DNA of 60,701 nucleotides from Melioribacter roseus (GTDB lineage Bacteria > Bacteroidota > Ignavibacteria > Ignavibacteriales > Melioribacteraceae): contig DYLN01000004.1 of the NCBI GenBank assembly GCA_020722085.1, positions 1-60,701 on the forward strand. Direction: 5' to 3'. Numbering within the stretch: the stretch's first letter is position 1; the number at the start of each line of letters is the position of its first letter. Position numbers and translations under genes: made by a program. The notes beneath the pieces were generated by a model. It was given only the letters and a program-made list of their open reading frames with translations, was not told where the DNA came from and ran no database searches. Below, in pieces: positions 1 through 14,394 of the stretch.

Positions 1-66
1 GAAGATTTGTTGAAAGATCAAATCGGTATTTACAAAAGATTATATGAACTTCAATTCCGGAATTAA
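1..66 (+). CDS. ABC transporter, C-terminal fragment (cut by window edge)
   Basis: Frame 1 is open from the first base and gives 21 residues ending in LQFRN before TAA at 64-66. A G-x-Y-x-x-LY-x-x-QF tail is typical of the extreme C terminus of MsbA-like ABC exporters (fused permease and ATPase), just after the nucleotide-binding domain. Only this tail is visible, so the family call rests on a short pattern and the rest of the gene lies outside the window. Confidence 0.45.
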   Translation, partial: EDLLKDQIGIYKRLYELQFRN

Positions 67-216
67 TAAGACATAACATGAAAGAAACTGGCTTATCGAT
101 ACTATTTTATGCTGCCATTTCTTTTTCTAAAAATTTATATCTTTCGAAGAGGTTTTTCACAAAGTGGTGTATTCTCTTAAGACATTACTAACGGGGGAAT
201 TTAAGCCGGAAGATAA

Positions 217-1110
217 ATGAAGATTGGTATAATACCCAACATTGCTAAAGAAAATATAGTAGATGTTATCGAACGAATTGTAACTCTCCTTAAAACAGAA
301 AATATTGATTATGTTATTTGTGATTCAATGCTGAAATTCAAAAGCCAGTTCGGTAAAACTCTTAAAGATTCACAATATGAAAAAAGCAAGAACGTTATAA
401 AGGATAGTGATATGGTTGTTTCGGTAGGAGGCGACGGAACAATGCTGCATACTGCTTATGAAGTTTGGAATTACAGTACTCCAATGTTAGGCGTAAATAT
501 CGGCAAGCTTGGTTTTCTTGCAGAATTTGATATCGAAAGTTTCAACCGGTTTGTGAAGGAAATAAAATCGAATAATTATGTAATTGACGAAAGAATGGCG
601 CTCGCCGCAGTCTGCAGCGGAAGCAAAGAAGAGCTTATTGCAATTAACGACATCGTGATTGATAAAGGACAGTGGTCGAAAATGATTGAAATAACAATTA
701 AAGTTGATGAGAACTACGTTACAACGTTTTCGGCAGACGGAATTATTGTAGCAACTCCTACAGGCTCAACCGGATATTCGCTTTCTACCGGCGGTCCGAT
801 TGTCAGTCCCAAAGCCGATGCGATTACATTAAGTCCTATTGCACCGCATACGCTTACTATTCGTCCTCTGGTTTTGTCAAGTCACCAAAATGTTTTGCTT
901 TTTGTAAAATCTCCACTCGATAAAATTAGAATTAGTCTGGACGGACAAAGAGTGAGTTATTTTAGTTCACCGCTGACTGTTTCTATAAAAAGGAGCGAAA
1001 AACCTGTTAAGCTTGTGCATTCGACCAAGACAGATTATTTTCAGATTTTAAGGAACAAACTTTACTGGGGTTTGGACCTAAGAACAATAAACAACAAAAA
1101 GCAGGTCTAG
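217..1110 (+). CDS. nadK: NAD kinase
   Basis: ATP-dependent NAD kinase, which phosphorylates NAD to NADP in the cytosol. The 297 residues are a normal family length. The GGDG motif is at residues 71-74, followed by TMLHT, and the second signature TPTGSTGYSLSTGG lies near residue 180. The ATG follows a purine-rich GGAAG about 6 nt upstream. The next gene starts one base after this stop, so the two are probably cotranscribed. The call is firm because both NAD-kinase motifs are intact. Confidence 0.96.
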   Translation: MKIGIIPNIAKENIVDVIERIVTLLKTENIDYVICDSMLKFKSQFGKTLKDSQYEKSKNVIKDSDMVVSVGGDGTMLHTAYEVWNYSTPMLGVNIGKLGFLAEFDIESFNRFVKEIKSNNYVIDERMALAAVCSGSKEELIAINDIVIDKGQWSKMIEITIKVDENYVTTFSADGIIVATPTGSTGYSLSTGGPIVSPKADAITLSPIAPHTLTIRPLVLSSHQNVLLFVKSPLDKIRISLDGQRVSYFSSPLTVSIKRSEKPVKLVHSTKTDYFQILRNKLYWGLDLRTINNKKQV

Positions 1111-1111
1111 C

Positions 1112-1618
1112 ATGAGAAGCTTATTATTGACCTTTATTTTAGTTTTTGCGGCAAATATAAATGCACAGGAAAAATGTGTAACGAAACTTGATGAAAAGTC
1201 TGGAAATCCTATGCTGATCGGATTAATTGACAGAGAAGCTTTTGCCGATACAAACTATGCATGGTGGTATGATTCCGAATATAAAAATTATGATGTTGAT
1301 TCGATTTCTCTTAAGAAGATTAAGGATAGATTAAAAGATTACAATATTACGATTGTAATGGGAACATGGTGTTCCGACAGCAGAAGGGAAGTGCCGAGAT
1401 TTTTCAAAATTCTTGACTACTTAAAATTCCCCGAAGAAAAAGTAAAGATGATTGCAGTAGATCGAAATAAAAAAGCTCTCGACAGCGAAATCGAAAAATT
1501 AAATATTGAACTTGTGCCGGATTTTATTTTTTATAAGGATTCTACTGAAGCAGGAAGAATTGTTGAATCACCGAAAAAATCCCTCGAAAAAGACCTCGAC
1601 GAAATTGTTGTGAAATAA
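1112..1618 (+). CDS. Secreted thioredoxin-fold protein with a WCSDS site
   Basis: 168 residues with an N-terminal signal peptide (hydrophobic residues 3-14, then ANINAQ, a likely signal peptidase I site), so probably periplasmic. The thioredoxin-like core has the active-site region GTWCSDSRREVPRF at about 84-97 and a cis-proline-type VPDF loop near 133. The usual CxxC is replaced by C87-S-D-S90, so the resolving cysteine is absent. That points to a monothiol or structural role rather than a classical dithiol oxidoreductase. It sits one base downstream of nadK. The substrate is unknown. Confidence 0.75.
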   Translation: MRSLLLTFILVFAANINAQEKCVTKLDEKSGNPMLIGLIDREAFADTNYAWWYDSEYKNYDVDSISLKKIKDRLKDYNITIVMGTWCSDSRREVPRFFKILDYLKFPEEKVKMIAVDRNKKALDSEIEKLNIELVPDFIFYKDSTEAGRIVESPKKSLEKDLDEIVVK

Positions 1619-1624
1619 AGAATA

Positions 1625-1658
1625 GAAGATTTCATCTTTTTAGAAAGATGAAATCTTC
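1625..1658. terminator. Perfect 15-bp hairpin after nadK-thioredoxin
   Basis: Arms 1625-1639 and 1644-1658 are exact reverse complements around a 4-nt loop, starting 7 nt after the stop at 1618. No long T run follows on either strand, so it is either a weak bidirectional terminator or an mRNA 3' end stabiliser between the + operon and the minus-strand kamA-like gene. Confidence 0.55.
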
Positions 1659-1668
1659 TCAATTATTA

Positions 1669-1889
1669 TTAACCCAGATTATCCATTAGGAAAATTCATC
1701 AATAAGATATTAGTAACGTAACTTGTTAAATGATAAGTATTAAATCCCGGCATAGATTTTTTGGGGCTTGTGGTTATTCAAACCTTCGGTAAAAGATTTT
1801 CTTACGGTTATATTGCTCTCAAACCCTTAGAAAATCATAGTCGATTTGTTATTAGTGTTTTTCTAATGACAAATTTGGGATTAATTTTC
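1669..1889 (+). repeat. Dispersed structured repeat, copy 1
   Basis: About 220 bp matching the reverse complement of 25111-25325 over almost its full length, by eye roughly 80-85% identical, with shared blocks such as AACTTGTTAAATG and ACCTTCGGTAAAA. It contains a 12-bp hairpin (1844-1855 with 1863-1874) with one G-T wobble, where copy 2 has a C-G pair. The right edge runs over the stop codon of the kamA-like gene at 1881-1883. No credible protein is encoded. It may be a mobile non-autonomous or REP-like element. Confidence 0.8.
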
Positions 1890-3050
1890 TACCGTTTCAT
1901 ATTCTGGTATTTTTATTGTCCTGATGTTTTTATAATTCTTAGGTTTCTTTGAGCCGCCGTTTTTCTTGTCAATTATTTCAACGGATATTTTATTAGCCCT
2001 TTCATACTCATCTTTTACATCACGGTAGACATAGACTTCGTTTTTATAATTCCGCATTACAATTCTATTTTCATCCCTGTGCAATACATATTGAGGCAGA
2101 ATAGGTATTTTTCCGCCGCCGCCAGGAGCATCAATTACGAAATAAGGGATAGCCAATCCGCTTATATATCCGCGCAGCTTGTCCATTATTTCAATGCCTC
2201 TATCGATGGAAGTTCTGAAGTGATTTGTACCTTTCGTTTCATCTGCCATAAACAAGTAGTAAGGTTTAACTCTTATTTTCAGCAGCTTTAAGAATAACTC
2301 TTTCAGCACTTCCGGATCATCATTAACACCTTTCATTAATACAGCCTGATTGCCTACTGGTATTCCTGCATTAACGAGCATTTCGCATGCTTTTGTGCTT
2401 TCAGGTGTAATTTCCCACGGATGGTTAAAATGTGTATTAACATAAATCGGGTGATACTTTTTTATCATGTCGCACAGTTTAGGTGTAATTCTATGAGGCA
2501 ATACGCATGGCATTTTGGTGCCTATCCGTATAATTTCGATATGTGGTATCTTTCTTAATCTGGCAAGAATTTTTTCCAGCATCACATCGGTAAGCATTAA
2601 AGGATCACCGCCGGAAAGGATAACATCCCGAATCTCCTTATGCTGTTCAAGATAATTAAAAGCCGATTCGAGTTCTTTCATGGAAATTTTATCTGAGTTG
2701 CCTACTTTCCTTTTTCTTGTGCAGAAACGACAGTACATTCCACACTGGCTCGTAGTTAAGAATAAAGCCCGGTCGGGATAACGGTGAGTAATATTTGGTA
2801 CCGGACTCATTTCGTCCTCTTTTAGAGGATCTTCAAACCCATCCATATCCTCAAGTTCCAATTTATCGGGGACACACTGTTTCCAAATTGGATCTCCCGG
2901 ATAACGGATAAGGCTGAGGTAGTAAGGGTTGATTCGTGCTTGAAAGAATTCATCAAGGTCCTCCGCAACTTTCCTGTCGATGCCAAACTTTTCTACAAGC
3001 TGGTCGACACTGTGTACGCTATTGCGGATCATCTGTTGCCATAGTTCCAT
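1881..3050 (-). CDS. KamA-family radical SAM aminomutase (lysine 2,3-aminomutase-like)
   Basis: Predicted radical SAM and PLP enzyme that moves an alpha-amino group to the beta carbon. The 389 residues carry the cluster-binding C103-x3-C107-x2-C110, with R112 matching the substrate-carboxylate arginine of lysine 2,3-aminomutase, the SGGDP motif at 146-150, and the PLP lysine K314 in GGGGK. D270 and D307 fall where the two aspartates that bind the lysine side-chain amine sit, with the same spacing to each other and to the PLP lysine. Lysine is therefore the likely substrate type. The C-terminal cysteine cluster that binds zinc in the clostridial enzyme is absent. It is last in an operon with a GNAT and two ATP-grasp ligases, 11 nt after the GNAT. 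EpmB-like function is possible, but no efp or epmA is nearby. Confidence 0.85.
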   Translation of the reverse strand: MELWQQMIRNSVHSVDQLVEKFGIDRKVAEDLDEFFQARINPYYLSLIRYPGDPIWKQCVPDKLELEDMDGFEDPLKEDEMSPVPNITHRYPDRALFLTTSQCGMYCRFCTRKRKVGNSDKISMKELESAFNYLEQHKEIRDVILSGGDPLMLTDVMLEKILARLRKIPHIEIIRIGTKMPCVLPHRITPKLCDMIKKYHPIYVNTHFNHPWEITPESTKACEMLVNAGIPVGNQAVLMKGVNDDPEVLKELFLKLLKIRVKPYYLFMADETKGTNHFRTSIDRGIEIMDKLRGYISGLAIPYFVIDAPGGGGKIPILPQYVLHRDENRIVMRNYKNEVYVYRDVKDEYERANKISVEIIDKKNGGSKKPKNYKNIRTIKIPEYETVEN

Positions 3051-3061
3051 TTTTTTACCCT

Positions 3062-3535
3062 TTATGTTATTATATATTTACCAAATACTATAAGATTATC
3101 GTTTTTGCTGTAAAAATCTTTTATTTCGGCAACTATCGAATAATTGTTTCTCAAATAAAAAGTTCTTGTAGGTGAATAACTTTCTTTGGAAGATGTCTCG
3201 GCTAATATCCATCTTCCACTTCTTTCCTTGACAAATCTTTCAGCATGGTTAAGCAGTTCCTTACCGATTCCTTTATTTCGCCACTCTGGATCAACAACTA
3301 TCCAGTATAAGTCGTAAACCCCGTCTGTTAACGCCCGCTTGCCAATGCAATGATATCCTAAAATTTTATCTCCCGCTTCATAGACGAACGTATTGTAATA
3401 GTCTAATTCAGCTCTGTTCAATGTTTCATCAATTAATTCCACGGCTACTTTTTTTTCTTCCTCATTAAAATTTTCAGTTTTTTTAATAATATCTAATATT
3501 TTCTCTCTGTCTTTAGACTGCAATCTGCGTATCAT
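3062..3535 (-). CDS. GNAT-family N-acetyltransferase
   Basis: 157 residues from the ATG at 3535. A longer reading from a TTG at 3556 is open, but the ATG has AAGAG about 7 nt upstream. The acetyl-CoA loop is visible as DPEWRNKGIGKELL near residue 85, followed by a C-terminal FYLRNNYS segment typical of GNAT strand 6. The start lies inside the end of the upstream ATP-grasp gene (23-nt overlap), so the two are probably translationally coupled. At 157 residues it is much shorter than AblB, the beta-lysine N-acetyltransferase, so the obvious AblA/AblB pairing is not supported by length. The acceptor is unknown; an amine made by the adjacent aminomutase is a reasonable guess. Confidence 0.85.
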   Translation of the reverse strand: MIRRLQSKDREKILDIIKKTENFNEEEKKVAVELIDETLNRAELDYYNTFVYEAGDKILGYHCIGKRALTDGVYDLYWIVVDPEWRNKGIGKELLNHAERFVKERSGRWILAETSSKESYSPTRTFYLRNNYSIVAEIKDFYSKNDNLIVFGKYIIT

Positions 3536-4571
3536 GTTTAATTCTCTTAAGGGCAAACATAGTTAACGTATAAAGCAGTTTATCGTAAGAATATCCTGCT
3601 GCTGCTGCCGACCTTACGAAACCGGCGTCGGGGGAAATATCTGGATTAGGGTTAATTTCGATTACGTAAGGGTTGTTCTTTTTGTCTAATCTTATATCAA
3701 TGCGCGCATAATCGCGGCATTCCATTGCATGGAAAGAATCGATTGCCAGTTTTTCTACTTTACGACGGGTTGCTTCATCAAGCTCAGCCGGACACTGCGG
3801 TTTTGTGTGCTTAAAATATATACTGTCTGCAGACCATTTTGCTTCGTAGGTAACTATTTTTGGGTATTCCTCAGGCAGACCATCAAATCTTATTTCTGAA
3901 ATCGGTAAAACCTCGTCACCAAGCACAGCAGCATTTAATTCTCTGCCTTCTATGTATTCTTCAATAATTAAGCTTTGTTTAAAAGAATCGAATAAATATG
4001 ATATTCTTCTTCTTAAAGAATCAAAATCATACACAACGGAATTTTCCGATATGCCAATACTTGCATCCTCATTCAGCAATTTTATAATTAAGGGGTAGTT
4101 TAATATTATTTCGCCCTCTTTGGGGATTTTCCTGAAAGGTATTGTTAAAAAGTCCGGAGTTTTTATTTCAAATGAGTTTAAGATTTGTTTTGTCCTGGAT
4201 TTTGTCAAGCAATTTCCAAGGCATGCGAGTGTATTACCTGTATAAGGAATTCCAAGAATATCGTAGAGACCAGCATTATAACTTTCGAAATTTGATTTTC
4301 CTTCAATCGACTCGACAAAATTAACGATCACATCTGGGGAATATTCTGTAATATTTTGGATGTTTGTTTTAACATTCTTTCCCAAAGCGAGAGATTTTAC
4401 GTTAAGGAAATGAATTTTTAAGGCATCTTCGATGCTTGTTATTAATTTTGAGAATTCGCTTTCAGATAAATCGATATTTTGTTCGGGGCTTTCTATCTTT
4501 TTGCCGATGTAATTCTCGTATAAACGAACCGGCTCGTTATAGCAAACAAGTACTCTTGTATCTGGTATCAT
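3513..4571 (-). CDS. ATP-grasp ligase, D-Ala-D-Ala-ligase-like (second of pair)
   Basis: 352 residues of the carboxylate-amine/thiol ligase superfamily. The ATP-grasp lysine region LIIKLLNEDASIGI is at 161-174, the clamp EEYIEGRELNAAVLG at 204-218, and the metal site is D292 in RIDIRLD plus E305 and N307 in EINPNPD. The N-terminal segment VNFVESIEG-x-GIPYTGN resembles the substrate-binding part of Ddl. It is a paralogue of the upstream gene, sharing EAKW and YTG-type segments. The ATG at 4571 overlaps the upstream TGA (ATGA), a strong sign of coupling. I would not name it ddl: there are two such genes, no mur genes are nearby, and the partners are an aminomutase and a GNAT, which suggests peptide-bond formation in a small-molecule pathway. 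Confidence 0.85.
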   Translation of the reverse strand: MIPDTRVLVCYNEPVRLYENYIGKKIESPEQNIDLSESEFSKLITSIEDALKIHFLNVKSLALGKNVKTNIQNITEYSPDVIVNFVESIEGKSNFESYNAGLYDILGIPYTGNTLACLGNCLTKSRTKQILNSFEIKTPDFLTIPFRKIPKEGEIILNYPLIIKLLNEDASIGISENSVVYDFDSLRRRISYLFDSFKQSLIIEEYIEGRELNAAVLGDEVLPISEIRFDGLPEEYPKIVTYEAKWSADSIYFKHTKPQCPAELDEATRRKVEKLAIDSFHAMECRDYARIDIRLDKKNNPYVIEINPNPDISPDAGFVRSAAAAGYSYDKLLYTLTMFALKRIKHDTQIAV

Positions 4572-5674
4572 AATAAATTATACCGTTTTGCCGCAGCAAT
4601 TAAAACCTTGTTTATCATTTCATCGTAAGCCAATCCCCTTGCACGTGCAGCTTTTGGAAAGCATGAATTATCAGATGGATCGGGTAAAACACCCGGCAAA
4701 GGATTAACTTCAATAATATTCGGTTCTCCTTTAGAATCCAGTCTAATATCAATACGGCTCCAATCTTTGCATCTTAGAACTTTATAAGTCATAAGAGCAG
4801 TACCTTTTATTTTTTCTTCTAGTTTTTGATCAATTTTTGCAGGGCACGTAAAAATATCTAGAGGATTCTGGCGGGTATCGTATACCCATTTGGCTTCAAA
4901 AGAATATACCGGCAGGATTCCTTCAGGCAGTTCGCTAAAGTTAATTTCTACAATAGGAAGAACCTCAGCTTCTTTGTCGTTGCCCAAAATTGCTACCGTA
5001 AATTCCCTCCCCGGTAAATATTCTTCGATAATACAAGGCTGACTGTATGTCTCGAGACATTGCTGGAGTTTTTCTTTTAACTCGTCGTAATTAGTTATAA
5101 AAGAACTATTAAAAATTCCTTTCCCTGAACCTTCACCTATCGGTTTTATGAAAAGCGGATACTCTAATTTGAGATTCTCTACATCCGCGAGTTTCTCAGC
5201 TCTTAAGAATTTAGCTGTTGGAATGCCGTGATAAAAAAGAATTTCCTTTGTTCTGGTTTTATCAAGGCACGTCATCATAGTTAACGGATCTGAACCGGTG
5301 TAAGGTATCTTTAACATATCAAGCATAGCTGGTATTTGTCCCTCGCGGCTTATTCCGTTAGCACATTCGGCATAGTTAAAGACAATGTCTGGTCTAGTTT
5401 TTCTAAATTTTTCGAATGCATCTTCGTTTGCTTCTATCATTGTAACATCATGAAACAATTCCAGAGAAGTTTTTATTGAATTAATTGTTTCAATTGTGTC
5501 CCATTCAGCATAAGTATCGTTGTATGAAGCTGTGTTTTGCGTAAGAGGTGAGAAAGGTGCATACTCGAAAGAGTTTTCTTCTTCCGGTTTTAAGTTGTAG
5601 GTAAGAACGACTTTCAACTTTTTATTTAGTATGAAGGAACTAATACAGAAACCTTCGAAAATTTTTTTATGCAA
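4568..5674 (-). CDS. ATP-grasp ligase, D-Ala-D-Ala-ligase-like (first of pair)
   Basis: Up to 368 residues. No ATG start is available: codon 1 at 5674 is TTG, and a second TTG at 5617 (KVVLTYN follows) better matches the likely start of the fold, so the N terminus is uncertain. Motifs: YAECANGISREGQ at 101-113, IPYTGSD at 123-129, the ATP-binding LFIKPIGEGSGKGI at 174-187, the clamp EEYLPGREFTVAILG at 217-231, and metal ligands D309 in RIDIRLD and E322/N324 in EVNPLPG. All catalytic elements of the Ddl branch of ATP-grasp appear intact. It is first in a four-gene operon with its paralogue, a GNAT and a KamA-like enzyme. The product is unknown. Confidence 0.85.
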   Translation of the reverse strand: MHKKIFEGFCISSFILNKKLKVVLTYNLKPEEENSFEYAPFSPLTQNTASYNDTYAEWDTIETINSIKTSLELFHDVTMIEANEDAFEKFRKTRPDIVFNYAECANGISREGQIPAMLDMLKIPYTGSDPLTMMTCLDKTRTKEILFYHGIPTAKFLRAEKLADVENLKLEYPLFIKPIGEGSGKGIFNSSFITNYDELKEKLQQCLETYSQPCIIEEYLPGREFTVAILGNDKEAEVLPIVEINFSELPEGILPVYSFEAKWVYDTRQNPLDIFTCPAKIDQKLEEKIKGTALMTYKVLRCKDWSRIDIRLDSKGEPNIIEVNPLPGVLPDPSDNSCFPKAARARGLAYDEMINKVLIAAAKRYNLL

Positions 5675-5717
5675 TATATCTTTTTAAAACTCATATGCAA
5701 CAATTTTTTAAAAAAAT

Positions 5718-5754
5718 TTTTAAAAAAAATTTTGTTGAGATGATCACAACAAAA
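5718..5754 (-). terminator. Probable intrinsic terminator of recG
   Basis: On the minus strand an 8-bp stem TTTTGTTG/CAACAAAA (5754-5747 with 5737-5730) closes a 9-nt loop and runs into a long T tract (5729-5718). It lies just after the recG stop at 5759. The stem is AT-rich, so efficiency is uncertain. If real, the ATP-grasp operon needs its own promoter in the AT-rich 5640-5720 stretch. Confidence 0.5.
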
Positions 5755-5758
5755 GTTG

Positions 5759-7936
5759 TCAACCGATGCGGGAGAATTTAAACTGCGATGAGTAGTTAGC
5801 AATAAGATTTTTTTTGATGAGAGAATTTTTTTCATGTTGAAGTTTGCTGTCGGAAGCTACCAAGTCGAAAGCAGTTTTTCTTGCCTCGGTTATTATGTCG
5901 GCGTCTTCGATTATGTTTGTATACTTTAATTCAGGCATTCCGCTTTGTTTTGTGCCGAAAATTTCTCCCGGACCCCTCAACCTTAAGTCGATTTCGGCAA
6001 GATCGAACCCGCTCGAGTACTTTACCATTGCATTCAGCCGGATAATTGACTTGTTCTTTTCGATTTGAGCATGCGACATGTACTCGAAATTAAAGTTAAA
6101 TTGCGGGGATTCAACTGCTAATTCGTTCTTTGTGATTAAAATGCAGTATGCTTGAGCTTTACCTCTCCCAACTCTGCCCCTTAGCTGGTGAAGCTGGGAT
6201 AAACCAAACCGGAATGCATCGTTGATTACTATTATATTTGCTTCCGGAATGTCAATGCCGACTTCGATTACCGTAGTTGAGACAAGAACGTCATATTCCT
6301 TGCTTGCAAATTTGTACATGATTTCTTCTTTTTCCTTCCAGTTCATTCTTCCATGAATAAGACAGACTCTAACCTCACTTAAATAAGTTTCTTTCAATTC
6401 GTTGAAATAAGTCTCAGCAGCTTTAAGATCTACCTTTTCGGATTCTTCGATTAGAGGATAAACAAGGAATGTTTGACAGCCTTCCCTTGCTTTAGTTTTG
6501 ATAAAATTATAAACCTCTGGTAATTTTTTCTCACTTCTAAGATAAGTTTTCACCGGTTTTCTGTCTGACGGCATCTGATTGATGAAAGAAATATCCAGAT
6601 CGCCGTACAGAGTCATGGTAAGTGTTCTGGGAATGGGTGTAGCAGTCATCACAAGTACGTTGGGGGTAAAACCCTTTTCGATTAATTGGGCACGCTGAAC
6701 AACTCCAAATCTGTGTTGTTCATCAATTATTACTAATCCCAACTTATGGTAAGCAACATTTTCTTCGATGAGTGCATGAGTGCCGATAATTATTTCTGCT
6801 TTTCCGGATTTAATTTCTTCAAGCGTTTTTGCCCTCTCACTTTTAGATTGTCCGCCGATTAGCAATACAACTCTTGTATCTAATCCGGAAAGCAGGGCAG
6901 TTATTTTTTTGTAGTGCTGATCGGCAAGAATTTCAGTTGGAACCATTAAAACCGACTGATAACCGTTATATTTGGCAATCAGCATCGAGATTAAAGCAAC
7001 AATAGTTTTTCCGCTTCCGACGTCTCCTTGGAGTAACCGGTTCATAGGCTTTTGGCTCTCAAGATCTTTTCTTATATCGGTAAGTGCATTCAGTTGATCT
7101 TTTGTAAGCTTAAAAGGTAGTTTATTCAATAATTTTTTAATAGGTTCTGCTCTTATCTGAAAAGGAATACCTTTAATCGTGTTTTTTATGAACGACTTTC
7201 TTAATGCTGTAAGACATTCGAAATAAAACATCTCCTCGAATTTTAATCTGTTCTTAGCCTGCAGCAAAGCCTCATGATTCTGTGGGAAGTGTATATTTTT
7301 GATTGTTTGTTTTATGTCCAGAAGATTTTTTTCTTTAATGATGTAGTCTGGCAGGCTCTCTTCAAGGCTACCGGAATAATTTTCGACAGCGTAATGAATT
7401 ATTTTGCGCAGACTAAGATCGCCAAGGTTTCTTTCCCGCAGTTCTTTTGGTAAACTGTAAAACGGGATAATTTTACCTGTATTAAGAAATTCATCGGTTT
7501 CATTTTTACCAAATCTGTCAAAATCAGGATGAACGAATTGTAAATTGCCATACCTGGTAATTACTGGTTTAGCTGAAATTGCGTAAAATTCTCCAGTGTT
7601 GAATAAATCTTTAAAATATTTTATACCCTGGAACCAGACGCATTCATAAAACCCGAATTTATCTTTGAACGTTACCTTGAATATCTGTTTTTTGCCGTAG
7701 CGCACTAATTCTTTATCAATTACTTCTCCGATTATTGTAACTTCGCCGGTGTAGCCGTTGATAACGTGCTGTATTATTTTTGAACTGGAAAGGATAGTGG
7801 TTCTATCAAGATGTTTATATGGGAAATAATAAAGCAGATCACGGATGGTTTTAATTCCAATTTTAGCAAAAGATTCGGCTCTTTTTGGCCCTACTGATTT
7901 TAAGTACTGAACCGATATGGAAGTATCGCCTTGCAT
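5759..7936 (-). CDS. recG: ATP-dependent DNA helicase RecG
   Basis: 725 residues. RecG remodels stalled replication forks and branch-migrates Holliday junctions. The N-terminal YLKSVGPKRAESFAKIGI matches the start of the wedge region. The superfamily 2 helicase motifs are clear: Walker A GDVGSGKT, DEQH (DEQHRFGV), motif III MTATPIPRT, the late motif STTVIEVGIDIPEA and QLRGRVGRG. The RecG-specific tail LRGPGEIFGTKQSG is present near residue 640. The ATG is at 7936. It is transcribed in the same direction as gpsA but 55 nt downstream. Confidence 0.97.
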   Translation of the reverse strand: MQGDTSISVQYLKSVGPKRAESFAKIGIKTIRDLLYYFPYKHLDRTTILSSSKIIQHVINGYTGEVTIIGEVIDKELVRYGKKQIFKVTFKDKFGFYECVWFQGIKYFKDLFNTGEFYAISAKPVITRYGNLQFVHPDFDRFGKNETDEFLNTGKIIPFYSLPKELRERNLGDLSLRKIIHYAVENYSGSLEESLPDYIIKEKNLLDIKQTIKNIHFPQNHEALLQAKNRLKFEEMFYFECLTALRKSFIKNTIKGIPFQIRAEPIKKLLNKLPFKLTKDQLNALTDIRKDLESQKPMNRLLQGDVGSGKTIVALISMLIAKYNGYQSVLMVPTEILADQHYKKITALLSGLDTRVVLLIGGQSKSERAKTLEEIKSGKAEIIIGTHALIEENVAYHKLGLVIIDEQHRFGVVQRAQLIEKGFTPNVLVMTATPIPRTLTMTLYGDLDISFINQMPSDRKPVKTYLRSEKKLPEVYNFIKTKAREGCQTFLVYPLIEESEKVDLKAAETYFNELKETYLSEVRVCLIHGRMNWKEKEEIMYKFASKEYDVLVSTTVIEVGIDIPEANIIVINDAFRFGLSQLHQLRGRVGRGKAQAYCILITKNELAVESPQFNFNFEYMSHAQIEKNKSIIRLNAMVKYSSGFDLAEIDLRLRGPGEIFGTKQSGMPELKYTNIIEDADIITEARKTAFDLVASDSKLQHEKNSLIKKNLIANYSSQFKFSRIG

Positions 7937-7991
7937 GCAAGCATTTTTGTTTTATATAAGAAATATAATAAAAATGAAAAGATGGAATCTC

Positions 7992-8990
7992 TCAATCCTC
8001 AATTTTCATATCGCGGGTCATAAGTTCGTAAGTAACTTTTGCGGGATCACGTTCTTCGAAGAGTATTTGATAGACGGCAGTACAAATAGGTGTTTCTACC
8101 TCGTGTTCTTGAGACAACTTATGAACCGATCTGGAAGTTTCTACACCTTCGGCAACCATGTTCATTGATTTCAGGATATCTTTGAGTTTTCTTCCGCGTC
8201 CTATTTGTTCGCCGACATAACGATTACGGCTGTGTTTGCTCATGCATGTTACGATTAAATCGCCCATACCGGAAAGGCCTGAGAAAGTTTCGGGTTTGGC
8301 GCCCAGATATATACCAAGCCGGGAAATTTCTGCAATTCCGCGTGTCATTATTGCAGCTTTGGTATTATCTCCGAATTTTGCTCCGTCAACTATTCCAGCG
8401 CCGATGGCTATGACATTTTTCAGTGCACCGCCGTATTCAACCCCTAAAATATCCACTGAAGAATACACTCTAAAATAAGAAGTCATAAACGCTGTCTGGA
8501 TTTGCTTGGCGGTTTTAATATCCGAAGATGCTGCAACAACTGCAGTGGGAACTTTTCTGCTTACTTCTTCGGCATGGCTTGGCCCGGAGAGAACACCTAT
8601 AGCTGTGCTGTCTATATCTTTAATCTCATCACTTATTATCTGAGAGACCGTCATCAGCGAGTTTTTCTCAATACCTTTGGCAACACTTACAAAAGTCGTA
8701 TTTCTGTAATCAAATTTTTTTATGTCTTTCAGTACATTTCTTACAAATTGAGAAGGTATTGCAATTACGATCATATGTTTATTATACGACGCGTCTTCAA
8801 GGTCATGTGTGATTGTTATTTCTTTTGGAATTTTAATACCGGGGAGATAGATTTTATTTTCACGGGAGCGGTCTAAAACTTTAGCATAGTTTTTTTTGTA
8901 TTCCCAAAGAGTTACTTCATGCCCGTTTAACTGCAGAAGAATTGAGAGTGTAGTGCCCCAACCCCCAGCACCAAGTACTGTAATTCTCAT
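7992..8990 (-). CDS. gpsA: Glycerol-3-phosphate dehydrogenase [NAD(P)+]
   Basis: 332 residues. Reduces dihydroxyacetone phosphate to sn-glycerol 3-phosphate, the backbone of phospholipids. The dinucleotide-binding GAGGWGTTLS is at residues 7-16, the catalytic-lysine region EYGGALKNVIAIGAG is near 190, and SGMGDLIVTC follows. Length and motifs are standard. It lies 23 nt downstream of plsY, the enzyme that acylates its product, so the pair forms the entry step of membrane lipid synthesis. Confidence 0.97.
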   Translation of the reverse strand: MRITVLGAGGWGTTLSILLQLNGHEVTLWEYKKNYAKVLDRSRENKIYLPGIKIPKEITITHDLEDASYNKHMIVIAIPSQFVRNVLKDIKKFDYRNTTFVSVAKGIEKNSLMTVSQIISDEIKDIDSTAIGVLSGPSHAEEVSRKVPTAVVAASSDIKTAKQIQTAFMTSYFRVYSSVDILGVEYGGALKNVIAIGAGIVDGAKFGDNTKAAIMTRGIAEISRLGIYLGAKPETFSGLSGMGDLIVTCMSKHSRNRYVGEQIGRGRKLKDILKSMNMVAEGVETSRSVHKLSQEHEVETPICTAVYQILFEERDPAKVTYELMTRDMKIED

Positions 8991-9013
8991 TTTTGCGGAC
9001 CCCGGGTAGTCAT

Positions 9014-9676
9014 CTATCTTTTCTTGAATAAGGATATTCGGTTTTCGTTTCCCTGAATTAACCTGCCGATATTTTTCCGGTGAGTAAAGATAACAAGAAG
9101 AACAAGAGCAAATACAAATGGAAGAATTGTGTTATAACTTTGAATGTGAGCATTGAATACATTCTCGCGGAGTATAAGAAAGACCGGCACCGAAACGGCC
9201 GCAGCAAGCGAACCTAAAGAAATGTAACGCGAGAGTGAAACAACTATTACAAAAACCGCCAGCGCAAGGAGCATGTCTATGGTAATGAGAGTAATTAAAA
9301 AGCCCAATGCAGTAGCAATTCCTTTTCCACCTTTAAATCCTGCAAAGACTGTCCAGATATGTCCTATTACTGCAAAGGTGCCACAGATTATCTGAATTAA
9401 GGTGAAATCATCGAAGGGAGTAATGTTGGTGAAAGGAACATTATCCCAGTATAACCTGGCAATGAATATTACTACTACCGCACCTTTTAGTGCATCGAGA
9501 ATAATAGTTAGAATTCCGTATTTCCATCCTAATACTCTAAATACATTTGTACCGCCGGCATTGCCGCTCCCATAATTTCGAATATCTATTCCTCTGACTA
9601 ATTTGCTTATAATAATACTGGTAGGGATAGAACCGACTAAATATGACAAAATGATAATAACAAATAAATTTAACAT
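9014..9676 (-). CDS. plsY: Acyl-phosphate:glycerol-3-phosphate acyltransferase
   Basis: 220-residue inner-membrane enzyme that transfers an acyl group from acyl phosphate to glycerol 3-phosphate, giving lysophosphatidate. It shows about five hydrophobic segments, the first spanning residues 3-20. PlsY motifs are present: GSIPTS in the first loop, RNYGSGNAGGTN near 32-45, and FKGGKGIAT near 113-121. Its substrate is made by the next gene, gpsA. Confidence 0.95.
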   Translation of the reverse strand: MLNLFVIIILSYLVGSIPTSIIISKLVRGIDIRNYGSGNAGGTNVFRVLGWKYGILTIILDALKGAVVVIFIARLYWDNVPFTNITPFDDFTLIQIICGTFAVIGHIWTVFAGFKGGKGIATALGFLITLITIDMLLALAVFVIVVSLSRYISLGSLAAAVSVPVFLILRENVFNAHIQSYNTILPFVFALVLLVIFTHRKNIGRLIQGNENRISLFKKR

Positions 9677-9762
9677 AAAAATAACCTCGACTTTAAGACT
9701 AAACTAAGTAAAATGTTTTTTATAAACAATGAAAAAGTATATCAAACATTACTACATTGCTG

Positions 9763-10437
9763 CTAATTCAATATCTTATGTAGCAATTCGATATCTGACT
9801 TATCTGTTACCTTAAAATTAATTGATGAACCTTCCACAATCTTTACTGAAAAACCTGCCTTTGTAACAAGCATTGATTCATCGGTGCCAATGAACCCTTC
9901 TTTCTTTGCATTATCGAATGCTTTTCTAAGATTTTTACAAGGGAAAATTTGTGGTGTCTGAACATAGTAAATTTCGTTCCTATCAATATATTCGGTCACT
10001 GTATCGCTGCCTTTAATCAAAGTATCTTTTGCTTTTATTGCCACAATAACATTTCCGTATATTTTTGCAGTTTCGATAGCATTATTAAGAATCGAGGGGG
10101 GAAGAAGTGGTCTAACAGCATCGTGGACAATAATTAAGTCATCATCCTTAGCGTCGATCGATTCAAGAGCATTTTGAACAGAATGCTGGCGGTCTTTACC
10201 TCCCTCAACAATTTTAGAAACTTTGTTCAGTTTATATTTATCTATTATACCGTTCAACAGGTTAAAATATTCTTTCTGTGCTGGAATCACTATTTTGTTT
10301 ACGTTAGTATTCTTTTGGAATATCTCTAATGTATAGGCAATCAATTCTTTACCGCTGAATTTAATATATTGTTTGGGAAGCGGAGTATTGATACGTTTGC
10401 CGGTGCCACCGGACGGGATAATAGCATAAACTTTCAT
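9763..10437 (-). CDS. ispD: 2-C-methyl-D-erythritol 4-phosphate cytidylyltransferase
   Basis: 224 residues. Third enzyme of the MEP isoprenoid pathway, joining CTP and MEP to CDP-ME. The nucleotidyltransferase signature IIPSGGTGKRI is at 6-16 with PLPKQYI at 19-25. HDAVRPLL lies near 104-111 and GTDESMLV near 184. It starts one base after the queA stop, so the two are coupled. Its presence indicates isoprenoids through the MEP route rather than mevalonate. Confidence 0.95.
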   Translation of the reverse strand: MKVYAIIPSGGTGKRINTPLPKQYIKFSGKELIAYTLEIFQKNTNVNKIVIPAQKEYFNLLNGIIDKYKLNKVSKIVEGGKDRQHSVQNALESIDAKDDDLIIVHDAVRPLLPPSILNNAIETAKIYGNVIVAIKAKDTLIKGSDTVTEYIDRNEIYYVQTPQIFPCKNLRKAFDNAKKEGFIGTDESMLVTKAGFSVKIVEGSSINFKVTDKSDIELLHKILN

Positions 10438-10438
10438 T

Positions 10439-11476
10439 TTATATTATTAGCATTGCATCGCCGTAACTCAAGAATCTGTATCCTTCTCTTAATGCTTTTT
10501 TGTAAGCTTTCATTATATTTTCAAAGCCTCCAAAAGCGGCTGCAAGCATTAAGAGTGTAGATTCCGGCGCATGAAAATTCGTAATTAGTTTTTTAGTAAC
10601 TTTAAAATCATACGGTGGAAAAATAAATTTATCTGTCCAGCCAAAATTAGGTTTTACAAATCCTTCTGCCGTTACGCTGCTTTCTAAAGCTCGGGTAGTG
10701 CTTGTACCAACCACAAATACATTTTTCTTTTCGGAAAGAGCCTTGTTGATTACCTGTGCTGATTCTTCCGGAATTTCAAAATATTCTGAATCCATTCTGT
10801 GTTTAGTTAAATCTTCAACTTCTACAGGCCTAAAAGTTCCAAGTCCAATATGAAGTATAACGCTAACTACCTTTACTCCTTTTTTTTGAATCTTTTTTAG
10901 CAACTGATGGGTAAAATGTAAGCCGGCTGTAGGAGCTGCAACCGAGCCGTCAATTTTGGCAAAGATTGTCTGATAATTTTCTCTGTCTTCCGGCAGAGTA
11001 TCTCTTTTGATATAAGGAGGAAGGGGAGTAGTGCCAATATTTTCGATAGCCTGAAAAATATCTCCAGCGTCATCGTTAAAACGAACTGTTCTTCCTCTTG
11101 AGGTGGTATTATCAATTACTTCGCACCAAAGATTATCGTTAAAATAAATTCTGTTTCCGATTCTCACTTTGCGAGCAGGGTCAACAATCACATCCCATAT
11201 TTTATCTTCCTTGTTCAATTCACGCAGGACAAAAACTTCAATCTTTGCATTTGTTCTTTCTTTTTTCCCAAAAAGGCGAGCCTGCATTACTTTGCTTTCA
11301 TTAACCACCAGCACATCGCCTTTGTTCATGTATTCGACAATGTCGGAAAAAATTTTATGTTCTATTTCACCGCTGTTGCGATTTAGTACGAGCAGCTTTG
11401 ATTTATCACGCGGATTAGCAGGGAATTTAGCAATAGCTGTTTTGGGTAAATTATACTTGAAATCAGAGAGTTTCAT
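10439..11476 (-). CDS. queA: tRNA preQ1(34) S-adenosylmethionine ribosyltransferase-isomerase
   Basis: Transfers and isomerises the ribosyl moiety of SAM onto preQ1 in tRNA, giving epoxyqueuosine. I place the start at the ATG at 11476 (MKLSDFKYNLPK, the usual QueA beginning), preceded by AGAAGA. Earlier in-frame starts exist at 11491 (ATG) and 11521 (TTG). From 11476 the protein is 345 residues. QueA signatures seen: FPANPRDKSKLLVL near the N terminus, APTAGLHFT, HIGLGTFRPVEVEDL and TNFHAPESTLLML. It is followed immediately by ispD. Confidence 0.96.
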   Translation of the reverse strand: MKLSDFKYNLPKTAIAKFPANPRDKSKLLVLNRNSGEIEHKIFSDIVEYMNKGDVLVVNESKVMQARLFGKKERTNAKIEVFVLRELNKEDKIWDVIVDPARKVRIGNRIYFNDNLWCEVIDNTTSRGRTVRFNDDAGDIFQAIENIGTTPLPPYIKRDTLPEDRENYQTIFAKIDGSVAAPTAGLHFTHQLLKKIQKKGVKVVSVILHIGLGTFRPVEVEDLTKHRMDSEYFEIPEESAQVINKALSEKKNVFVVGTSTTRALESSVTAEGFVKPNFGWTDKFIFPPYDFKVTKKLITNFHAPESTLLMLAAAFGGFENIMKAYKKALREGYRFLSYGDAMLII

Positions 11477-11549
11477 TTTTTCTTCTAACATCTTATTCCC
11501 GTTTTTATTATTCAATGGCAAAATTGTTTATTTATTAAACCGAGGCTGA

Positions 11550-11577
11550 CCTTAAATGAAAAATTCACAGCCAGCCT
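11550..11577 (-). terminator. Possible hairpin terminator of ppdK
   Basis: Between the ppdK stop (11590) and queA, the sequence around 11540-11579 contains GAGGCTG and, downstream, CAGCCTC, a 7-bp stem with a loop of about 24 nt. Only a short T run follows on the minus strand, so termination may be partial. Arm limits are approximate. Confidence 0.35.
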
Positions 11578-11589
11578 CTTAATTAACTG

Positions 11590-14394
11590 CTATTTCTTTT
11601 TAGATTTTGACGTATTTTTTCTTGTCGGCTTTTTTGCTGATGTGTTCTTTTTTAAGCCTGATGTTTTCATTTCTTTTACTACTGCCTGGGCTGCTGCCAG
11701 TCTTGCTATAGGTACACGGAATGGTGAGCAGCTTACATAATCTAATCCGATTTTATGGCAGAATTCGATAGATTTTGGTTCACCACCGTGTTCGCCGCAA
11801 ATACCAATCTTGAGGTCGGGACGTGTTGCGCGTCCGCCTTCAACGGCTATTTGCATCAATTTACCGATTGCTTCCTGGTCAATTGATTGAAATGGATCCT
11901 CCGGAAGAATTTTTTTATCGAGATAATCCGGTAAAAAACCGCCGATATCGTCACGTGAAAAGCCGAAACCCATTTGGGTTAAATCATTTGTTCCAAACGA
12001 AAAGAATTGTGCAACTTCGGCTATCTTATTAGCTGTTAGAGCCGCACGCGGGATTTCGATCATCGTACCGGTTAAATGGGGAATTTTTTTCAATCCGAAT
12101 TTTGTGCATACTTCTTCATAAACCCTGCTGATGATATCATATTGATGTTTTATTTCGTTGACTGTACAGGTGACGGGAATCATTATTTCCGGGAATGGTT
12201 TTTTACCTTCCTGTATCAACTCTGCTGCAGCTTCAAAAATTGCGCGTACCTGCATTTCAGTAATTTCGGGATAGGTAATACCAAGCCGAACGCCGCGGTG
12301 CCCCATCATGGGGTTGCTTTCGTGAAGTTTATCTGCTCTTTCGTTAAGTTCATTGAGAGAAATGCCGAGACTTGCAGCTAATTTTTCTCTTTCATCCTGA
12401 CGGTTTGGAACAAATTCATGCAGCGGCGGGTCAAGAGTTCTAATTGTAACGCCAAAACCGTTCATTGCTTCCAATGTACCTTTAATATCCTGCTTTACGT
12501 GAGGAAAGAGTTCATTTATAGCATTTATTCTTTCTGCTTTAGTGCTTGAAAGAATCATTTTGCGAAGTTTGAATAGTGGTTCTTCGGAATTTTTACCGTA
12601 GAACATATGTTCGGTTCTGAATAAGCCGATACCTTCAGCACCGAACGCACGGGCTTTTGCTGCATCTTCGGGAGTATCCGCATTTGTTCTTACTTTAAGT
12701 TTTCTTACCTGATCACAGAGTTTCATGAAAGTCTGAAAATCCGGATTTTCTTCTGCTGCTTTAATCATTGGTAATTCGCCCTTGTAAACCGTTCCTTTAG
12801 TACCGTTTAATGTGAGCCAATCGCCTTCTTTAACGATTATGTTATCAACCGAGAGAGATTTTTCAGCATAGTTAATTTTTATTGAACCGGCTCCGACAAT
12901 GCAGCATTTGCCCCAGCCCCGTGCAACTAGGGCTGCATGGGAAGTCATGCCGCCGCGGCCTGTTAGAATTGCCTGTGCAGCACGCATCCCTTCAATATCC
13001 TCGGGGTTTGTTTCTTCGCGAACAAGGATAACTTTTTTGCCTTCTTTAGCCCACGCTACTGCATCTGTGGCAGAGAATACGACCTGACCTGCTGCACCGC
13101 CAGGACCGGCAGGCAAACCTTTGGCAATTACTGTTGCAGATTTTTCAGCCATAGGATCTATGATAGGGTGAAGCAGTTCATCTAATTGTTCCGGTTGTAT
13201 ACGGCTTATAACTTCTTCCTTTGTGATTAATTTTTCTTTGTACATGTCGAGTGCCATTTTTACTGCAGCAGGACCGTTTCTTTTTCCAACACGGCATTGA
13301 AGCATGTAAAGCCGTCCTTCTTGAATTGTAAATTCTATATCGAGCATGTCGCGATAATGCTTTTCTAACTTACGCTGAATATTGTGTAATTGTTTGTAAG
13401 TACCGGGCATTGCAGTTTCAAGAGAAGGGAGATAATGGGTATGCTCACTTTTTCCGATTTCATTGATCGGATTCGGAGTTCTGATACCTGCAACAACGTC
13501 TTCTCCCTGGGCATTTGGAAGCCATTCACCGTAGAAATAGTTTTCGCCGGTAGCAGGATTACGTGTGAATGCTACACCTGTTGCAGAAGTATCTCCCATA
13601 TTTCCAAAGACCATTGATTGAACATTAACTGCTGTTCCCCAATCATCGGGTATTCCTTCAAATTTTCTATATGCTATTGCACGTTTGCCCATCCAGCTTT
13701 GGAATACTGCAGCAATGGCTCCCCACAGTTGTTCCATCGGATCTTCGGGAAAAGGTTTGCCGAGAACCTCATACACTTTAGTCTTATAAATTTCGATAAG
13801 TTCTTTTAAGTCTTCGGCTGTTAAGTCGGTATCATTTACGGCTCCTCTGGCTGCTTTCATTTTGTGCAATTCAGCCTCAAGCTGCTGGCGTACACCTTTT
13901 CCTTCTTCCGGTTCAATACCTGCGGCTTTTTCCATAACTACGTCGGAGTACATCTGAATTAAACGGCGGTGAGAATCATAAACAAAACGGGCGTTGCCTG
14001 TCTTTGCAATTAAAGCATCGCGCGTTGCATTGTTTAATCCTACATTAAGTATAGTTTCCATCATGCCTGGCATAGAAGCGCGTGCGCCGGAACGTACTGA
14101 AACAAGAAGCGGATTTTTTGTATCTCCAAATTTTGCTCCCATTTCTTTTTCAACTTTAGCAAGAGCATCTTTTACTTGTTTAGCCAGTTCTTTAGGATAT
14201 TTTTTGTTGTTTTTGTAGTAAGCAGTGCAAACTTCGGTTGTAATTGTAAAGCCGGCCGGCACGGGCAGTCCAATATTGACCATTTCCGCTAAGTTTGCAC
14301 CTTTTCCGCCCAAAAGAGCTTTCATGTCTGCTGTTCCTTCGGCACGTTTACCGCCAAAATAGTAAACGTACTTCGGCATTCTTTTCGCTGCCAT
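11590..14394 (-). CDS. ppdK: Pyruvate, phosphate dikinase
   Basis: 934 residues. Interconverts pyruvate, ATP and phosphate with phosphoenolpyruvate, AMP and pyrophosphate. The N-terminal ATP-grasp domain starts with GGKGANLAEM. The central phosphohistidine is in GGMTSHAALVARGWGK near 458. The C-terminal PEP/pyruvate barrel has GIGLFRTEHMF, MGHRGVRLG and SFGTNDLTQMGFGFSRDD. GGAGG (in TTGGAGGAAATG) precedes the ATG. The tail, about 25 residues after the conserved end, is very rich in lysine, threonine and serine, an extension I do not expect in the family. The pyrophosphate it makes or uses fits with the membrane pyrophosphatase at 55199. Confidence 0.97.
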   Translation of the reverse strand: MAAKRMPKYVYYFGGKRAEGTADMKALLGGKGANLAEMVNIGLPVPAGFTITTEVCTAYYKNNKKYPKELAKQVKDALAKVEKEMGAKFGDTKNPLLVSVRSGARASMPGMMETILNVGLNNATRDALIAKTGNARFVYDSHRRLIQMYSDVVMEKAAGIEPEEGKGVRQQLEAELHKMKAARGAVNDTDLTAEDLKELIEIYKTKVYEVLGKPFPEDPMEQLWGAIAAVFQSWMGKRAIAYRKFEGIPDDWGTAVNVQSMVFGNMGDTSATGVAFTRNPATGENYFYGEWLPNAQGEDVVAGIRTPNPINEIGKSEHTHYLPSLETAMPGTYKQLHNIQRKLEKHYRDMLDIEFTIQEGRLYMLQCRVGKRNGPAAVKMALDMYKEKLITKEEVISRIQPEQLDELLHPIIDPMAEKSATVIAKGLPAGPGGAAGQVVFSATDAVAWAKEGKKVILVREETNPEDIEGMRAAQAILTGRGGMTSHAALVARGWGKCCIVGAGSIKINYAEKSLSVDNIIVKEGDWLTLNGTKGTVYKGELPMIKAAEENPDFQTFMKLCDQVRKLKVRTNADTPEDAAKARAFGAEGIGLFRTEHMFYGKNSEEPLFKLRKMILSSTKAERINAINELFPHVKQDIKGTLEAMNGFGVTIRTLDPPLHEFVPNRQDEREKLAASLGISLNELNERADKLHESNPMMGHRGVRLGITYPEITEMQVRAIFEAAAELIQEGKKPFPEIMIPVTCTVNEIKHQYDIISRVYEEVCTKFGLKKIPHLTGTMIEIPRAALTANKIAEVAQFFSFGTNDLTQMGFGFSRDDIGGFLPDYLDKKILPEDPFQSIDQEAIGKLMQIAVEGGRATRPDLKIGICGEHGGEPKSIEFCHKIGLDYVSCSPFRVPIARLAAAQAVVKEMKTSGLKKNTSAKKPTRKNTSKSKKK

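Follow-up and report, generated by a model that had tools for sequence, protein, structure and literature searches.

Positions 1881-5674 of the Melioribacter roseus DNA considered here carry four genes on the minus strand, predicted to encode two ligases, an acetyltransferase and an aminomutase. The window, meaning the whole stretch of DNA analysed, is 60,701 nucleotides long and represents one entire contig of a 3.64-Mb genome. The first gene, AG1 (4568-5674, 368 residues in its longer form), and the second, AG2 (3513-4571, 352 residues), were called as open reading frames (ORFs) and match the domain Dala_Dala_lig_C (PF07478), which marks both as ATP-grasp ligases resembling the D-alanine-D-alanine ligase Ddl. 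They are followed by a GNAT-family N-acetyltransferase (3062-3535, assigned by its GNAT domain) and by a KamA-type radical SAM aminomutase resembling lysine 2,3-aminomutase (1881-3050, 389 residues, with matches to TIGR00238, LAM_C and Radical_SAM).

The genes are tightly packed. In the sequence AG1 and AG2 share an ATGA at 4568-4571, and an 11-nucleotide spacer separates GNAT from KamA. The ORF finder placed GNAT at 3062-3556 with a TTG start, but the alignment shows the conserved start (MIRKL) to be the ATG at 3535, so that its overlap with AG2 is 23 rather than 44 nucleotides. The start of AG1 is uncertain: conservation sets in near 5617, at a TTG in the same frame, and the structure model of the longer form is unreliable over residues 1-16. 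The original prediction, made from the sequence alone, described these genes as a single operon with both overlaps. The ORFs, the family matches and the conserved gene order described below all bear this out, and confirm that AG1, AG2, GNAT and KamA form a genuine one-strand operon.

AG1 was searched for in a sample of 296 genomes of the phylum, and matched 82 of them at E≤1e-30 and 53 at E≤1e-95 (here called strong AG1). The stretches around all 53 strong matches were fetched and read for gene order. The order AG1-AG2-GNAT-KamA, on one strand, is present in 41 of them. Contig ends interrupt three of the remaining 12 (G047, G200 and G251; for the last two, a different contig carries the rest of the genes with their order unchanged), and in the other nine none of the three partner genes lies near AG1. 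A second set of loci consists of the best 80 of at least 563 relatives of the AG1 alignment in named records, and its overlap with the genome sample is of unknown extent. Here the whole set is in order in 75 of the 80, with four others cut by contig ends. The fifth, L151, has a complete operon apart from a GNAT (10172-10500) that lacks its middle part, which reflects either decay or an assembly error. Among these best 80, the closest matches to AG1 are Melioribacter and other Ignavibacteria, and the titles are mostly of Ignavibacteria or subgroups, Melioribacter, Bacteroidetes and Kryptonia-type genomes, together with one Chlorobiaceae (L156) and one Deltaproteobacteria (L179). The operon is also present in the cultured Stygiobacter electus (L112), and Melioribacter roseus is represented by metagenome-assembled genomes bearing that name.

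The order also holds in stretches where RecG, GpsA or NAD kinase was not found, so the linkage is more than general synteny. Compared with the nearest genome, KamA, GNAT and AG1 have ratios of nonsynonymous to synonymous substitution (dN/dS) of 0.02-0.05, with synonymous sites near saturation, indicating purifying selection; for AG2 dS is saturated and no ratio is obtainable.

The four genes also occur together. In the sample, KamA is found in 101 of the 296 genomes at E≤1e-40, the GNAT profile matches 56 at E≤1e-12, and the AG2 profile matches 54 at E≤1e-70, including G156, which holds only a third paralogue, AG3, that E-values do not separate from AG2. In 52 of the 53 genomes with strong AG1, KamA (E≤3e-105) and GNAT (E≤7e-45) are both present. 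The sole exception, G047, has a contig ending inside AG2, and apart from this contig-cut genome no partial set was seen among the 296 at the limits used. Outside the set, the next GNAT is at 5.5e-35 and the next AG1-like genome at 1.7e-48. Nine genomes, namely seven of family f37 together with G087 and G280, hold the complete set in scattered form; in G137, for example, AG1, AG2, GNAT and KamA lie on contigs C10, C13, C2 and C10. That all four genes are kept in nine genomes even though they are dispersed suggests a functional link between them, beyond mere position. The original prediction would have been in difficulty had the homologues rarely been clustered; instead they mostly stand in order, and co-occur even when apart.

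The scattered genes are relatives of the operon genes. In a tree of 45 KamA rows, six scattered rows are sister to 21 operon rows, with a support of 89 for the joint fork (Shimodaira-Hasegawa-like approximate likelihood ratio test, SH-aLRT). A tree of 51 ligase rows makes scattered AG1 the sister group of operon AG1. Scattered AG2 likewise pairs with operon AG2, inside which AG3 falls; a single clade of operon and scattered AG2 is not rejected (p 0.118). Both trees are quick ones, made from part of the rows and midpoint-rooted. Two scattered AG2 rows were placed in the AG2 alignment by hand, and their kinship was checked later by the tree.

The scattered genes have their own recurrent neighbours, named here by reading. 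A gene read as glutamate racemase lies by GNAT in seven of the nine genomes (L234, L236-L239, L241, L242), a YbeY-like gene precedes KamA in all eight stretches fetched (L219-L224, L251, L253), and AG1 is followed by a gene resembling RsmB in seven of nine (L081, L084-L086, L088-L090).

The aminomutase belongs clearly to the KamA family, scoring 308.0 bits against the TIGR00238 cut-off of 199.2. It aligns to the Clostridium lysine 2,3-aminomutase (2a5h) over 341 residues with 401.6 bits. In the numbering mapped from 2a5h, the CxxxCxxC motif of iron-sulphur cysteines, the carboxylate-binding R134, D293, D330 and K337, the lysine that binds pyridoxal phosphate (PLP), are present in all 41 rows of the class. 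In lysine 2,3-aminomutase, D293 and D330 are the residues to which the epsilon-amine binds; the glutamate enzyme of the family differs there. Their equivalents are also kept in 73 of 75 rows of the named set, and in all seven readable KamA rows of the nine scattered-type genomes (that of G133 is cut before the sites, and the KamA of G272 was left out). Lysine is thus supported as the substrate by these aligned residues. The two exceptions among the 75 are distant second KamA genes of L134 (457-1848) and L137 (1-1428), which lie a few kb from the operon (31% identity) and carry Arg and Ser in place of the aspartates.

The predicted models of AG1 and AG2 have the Ddl fold (mean predicted local distance difference test scores, pLDDT, of 86.2 and 89.5), and for each model the 50 best solved matches listed are Ddl-type ligases. 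Both keep the equivalents of Lys215, Arg255, Asp257 and Asn272 of Ddl; Glu270 is mostly kept, being Asp in two scattered AG2 rows, and Tyr216 is replaced by Trp. Since the core residues and the fold are retained, amide bond formation through an acyl phosphate is likely for both. They do not, however, look like Ddl itself. Their scores against the D-Ala-D-Ala ligase model TIGR01205 are 159.1 and 131 bits, below its cut-off of 245.65, whereas a separate canonical Ddl in the same genome (contig C82) reaches 318.5 bits. The HGxxGEDG motif is present in the genome's own Ddl and absent from AG1 and AG2.

The two ligases also differ from each other. AG1 retains Gly276 and Ser281, the residues of Ddl that position the acceptor carboxylate, while AG2 has Asp instead of Gly276 and, in most rows, Ala or Ser where Ddl has Ser281, and the acceptor of AG2 may therefore differ.

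Several relatives of the ligases are worth adding. The third paralogue, AG3, split from AG2 within the class according to the tree. In all six AG3 stretches read (L092 5674-7664, equivalent to G000:C172, and L093, L094, L096-L098) it is divergent to a protein of about 280 residues, which has no NCBIfam match and which by its look we take to be a C39-like peptidase. L095, which was listed with them, represents G280's scattered AG2 instead. No AG2 relative on a viral contig was confirmed. Four long open frames around the ATP-grasp genes were examined; those of G179 and G030 look like artefacts of high G+C content, and those of G162 and G227 like real fusions. In L229 (4574-6508) and L230 (4496-6436), an apparent S-adenosylmethionine-dependent methyltransferase is, by reading, fused to a Ddl-like ATP-grasp domain.

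Among solved structures the GNAT comes closest to 2r7h (E 5e-26 over 144 residues), whose deposited name is putative D-alanine N-acetyltransferase. The GNAT does not match TIGR03827, the model of AblB, the acetyltransferase of the known N-acetyl-beta-lysine pathway. It therefore groups with 2r7h and not with AblB.

On the basis of these observations we hypothesise that the operon encodes one pathway, in which lysine is converted to beta-lysine and ligated to other amino acids, and the product is acetylated by the GNAT; we put the chances of this at about even. The chemistry of the KamA, ATP-grasp and GNAT families is established. KamA would form beta-lysine by shifting the alpha-amino group of L-lysine to C3. 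The two ligases would each activate a carboxylate as an acyl phosphate and couple it to an amine, thus attaching one or two other amino acids to beta-lysine. With one free amine acetylated by the GNAT, the result would be a short N-acetylated beta-lysine peptide. The product would be soluble, and a first guess at its role is a compatible solute or stress metabolite. That lysine is the actual substrate, and likewise the ligase partners, the sequence in which the enzymes act, the group that accepts the acetyl, the solubility of the product and its role, we infer. The original prediction of an acetylated peptide or conjugate containing beta-lysine therefore stands in part: lysine as the substrate of KamA gains support from D293 and D330, while the acetylated product continues to be drawn from family chemistry. 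A solute role is reasonable because AblA and AblB make the compatible solute N-acetyl-beta-lysine in methanogens (PMC1224877), and because most of the f24 genomes searched pair AblB with KamA. On the other hand, the record titles of several carriers point to groundwater, lake or fen samples, and positions 1-12000 gave no match to a known RNA element.

A number of points weigh against this proposal. The E-value limits for co-occurrence were chosen after the lists had been seen, leaving a wide gap for AG1 and a moderate one for GNAT, and the counts ignore kinship between genomes. Four genomes without strong AG1 contain GNAT relatives that match less well (E 5e-35 to 8e-18). KamA falls below every substrate-level NCBIfam cut-off, namely those for AblA, the lysine 2,3-aminomutase (TIGR03820; 456.4 against the equivalog cut-off of 525.4), for the glutamate enzyme (448.9 against 650) and for the arginine enzyme (354.7 against 600), so that lysine as the substrate is not settled. 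The Asp at the Gly276 site of AG2 was considered as a possible beta-lysine pocket and dropped, because AG3 has the same Asp and, in the stretches read, no adjacent KamA. No transporter or regulator was seen inside the operon. On plasmids, for which the gene tables are incomplete, two ATP-grasp relatives (Rhizobium and Sinorhizobium) are listed with neither KamA nor GNAT in the vicinity, and a GNAT relative (Aquisphaera) is listed without an ATP-grasp gene close by.

Of the alternatives, the one that survives best, though we consider it unlikely, is that the beta-lysine unit is attached to a macromolecule such as elongation factor P (EF-P) or a peptidoglycan precursor, instead of forming a free small peptide. 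In its favour, EpmB, a relative of KamA, serves EF-P in enterobacteria, the genome's own EF-P carries a lysine at its loop tip, and a putative glutamate racemase gene lies near GNAT in most scattered-type genomes. Nevertheless, KamA scores below the EpmB cut-off (TIGR03821; 245.1 against 369.3), and no match to EpmA in the genome exceeds its cut-off, the best (242.6 against 286.9) being a frame of 517 residues read as a full-length lysyl-tRNA synthetase. The efp gene lies on a different contig from the operon, and to our knowledge no EF-P route involves a pair of Ddl-like ligases together with a GNAT. Beta-lysylation of EF-P by EpmA and EpmB is therefore not supported, despite the loop lysine. 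The remark in the original prediction that no nearby mur, efp or known solute gene explains the operon agrees with the position of efp and with the failure to find AblB, considered next.

A somewhat poorer case can be made for N-acetyl-beta-lysine itself as the product, in which case the GNAT would stand in for AblB and the ligases would serve some other purpose. The AblA/AblB route, which is also proposed for Pelobacter (PMC3543383), shares the first step and an acetyltransferase with the operon, and it is found in the same phylum: AblB exceeds its cut-off within 2 kb of KamA in 10 of the 13 f24 genomes searched (19 f24 genomes have a KamA match). With these as a positive comparison, AblB was not found in the present genome by a search that matched 5 of 14 control genomes, 3 of them over the cut-off, which rejects the AblA/AblB pathway as such. 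Moreover, AG1 and AG2 accompany KamA as tightly as the GNAT does, even when scattered.

Lower again in probability is the possibility that KamA works on another amino acid, leading to a different beta-amino-acid peptide. The KamA family also includes glutamate and arginine aminomutases, and the failure to reach any substrate-level cut-off would be consistent with this. The conservation of D293 and D330 throughout the class rows and the readable scattered-type rows argues against it, even if other basic substrates, arginine among them, may still fit.

Lysine breakdown, with KamA as the first step of fermentation, as it is in clostridia, and the neighbours incidental, is very improbable: the constant partners of KamA are ligases and an acetyltransferase, and the genome has no family match to the alpha subunit of lysine 5,6-aminomutase, the latter being weak evidence since none of 14 controls matched either. 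An ordinary D-Ala-D-Ala ligase function for AG1 and AG2, which their predicted fold and PF07478 domain might suggest, can be virtually dismissed from the TIGR01205 scores and the missing HGxxGEDG motif, in line with the original prediction.

The proposed acetylated peptide pathway can be set in a wider frame, to which we give rather less than an even chance: that it is an undescribed route to an N-acetylated di- or tripeptide of beta-lysine whose role in the cell is conserved, that it predates the split between Ignavibacteria/Kryptonia and another class of the phylum, and that it is one of several independent pairings of KamA with ATP-grasp ligases, constituting a general route to beta-amino-acid peptides that requires neither non-ribosomal peptide synthetases nor ribosomes. 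The four genes are present or absent as a block across the sampled genomes of the class, and are kept when dispersed, so that the product very probably matters to the cells. The class of compounds predicted from the enzymes is unusual: acetylated peptides of beta-lysine, assembled by ATP-grasp ligases of the stand-alone kind. The novelty would lie in the combination of familiar enzyme families, predicting an undescribed product. In the open-access literature searched, no published description of the set was found among the matches listed. In the portion of text available from the Melioribacter genome paper (PMC3534657) the word lysine does not occur, and in that from PMC9318685 the sole aminomutase is glutamate-1-semialdehyde aminomutase.

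Around the operon, RecG (named by reading) lies upstream on the same strand, and a thioredoxin-like gene (family match) and NAD kinase (by reading) are convergent with the operon. Between the convergent ends of KamA and the thioredoxin-like gene is a 16-bp hairpin (1624-1659), a possible two-way terminator, although the hairpin scan as a whole gave no excess over shuffled sequences (4 found, 3.0 expected). No RNA family was found at gathering scores in positions 1-12000.

The pairing of KamA with a ligase recurs in other lineages. KamA occurs without strong AG1 in 49 genomes, and among their aligned loci 25 have Gln at the D293 place. These 25 loci (among L194-L213, L216 and L225-L228) also have a shortened PLP loop (DTP..GK), and their KamA represents a separate aminomutase subfamily. 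They belong to other classes of the phylum, and in 17 of the 25 a Ddl-like ATP-grasp gene lies within 2.5 kb of KamA on the same strand. On a Thioflavicoccus mobilis plasmid (L101 3530-9011), genes for a diaminobutyrate transaminase, SbnA, an ornithine cyclodeaminase-like protein and an ATP-grasp enzyme, with KamA on the other strand, resemble a cluster for a small peptide; the plasmid has diaminopropionate genes. KamA also has such a neighbour on plasmids of Rhizobium (L256 4488-7092), where it adjoins an ATP-grasp gene, and of Sinorhizobium (L259 5950-8409), where it adjoins a gene of the biotin carboxylase family, here taken as ATP-grasp. The incomplete tables list no ATP-grasp gene near the KamA loci of Deinococcus and Leptospira plasmids.

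Several known systems come close to the operon. Like the AblA/AblB system for N-epsilon-acetyl-beta-lysine, it combines a KamA-type lysine 2,3-aminomutase with a GNAT; it differs in that its GNAT has no match to AblB and in the constant presence of two ATP-grasp ligases. The KamA keeps all the cluster, PLP and lysine-binding residues tested of the Clostridium enzyme 2a5h, but it scores below the AblA equivalog cut-off, and its partners look biosynthetic. AG1 and AG2 resemble Ddl in predicted fold, in the ATP-grasp core and in the equivalents of Lys215, Arg255, Asp257 and Asn272, and differ from it in the Trp at Tyr216, the lack of HGxxGEDG, their low scores and, in AG2, the Asp for Gly276. The GNAT is of the same family as the putative D-alanine N-acetyltransferase 2r7h. 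Synthesis of N-acetylglutaminylglutamine amide uses asparagine-synthetase-like and GNAT/ATP-grasp enzymes. Finally, the KamA/ATP-grasp pairs of the other classes and of the Thioflavicoccus, Rhizobium and Sinorhizobium plasmids have, as far as noted, one ligase and no such GNAT, whereas the operon described here joins KamA to two ligases and a GNAT.

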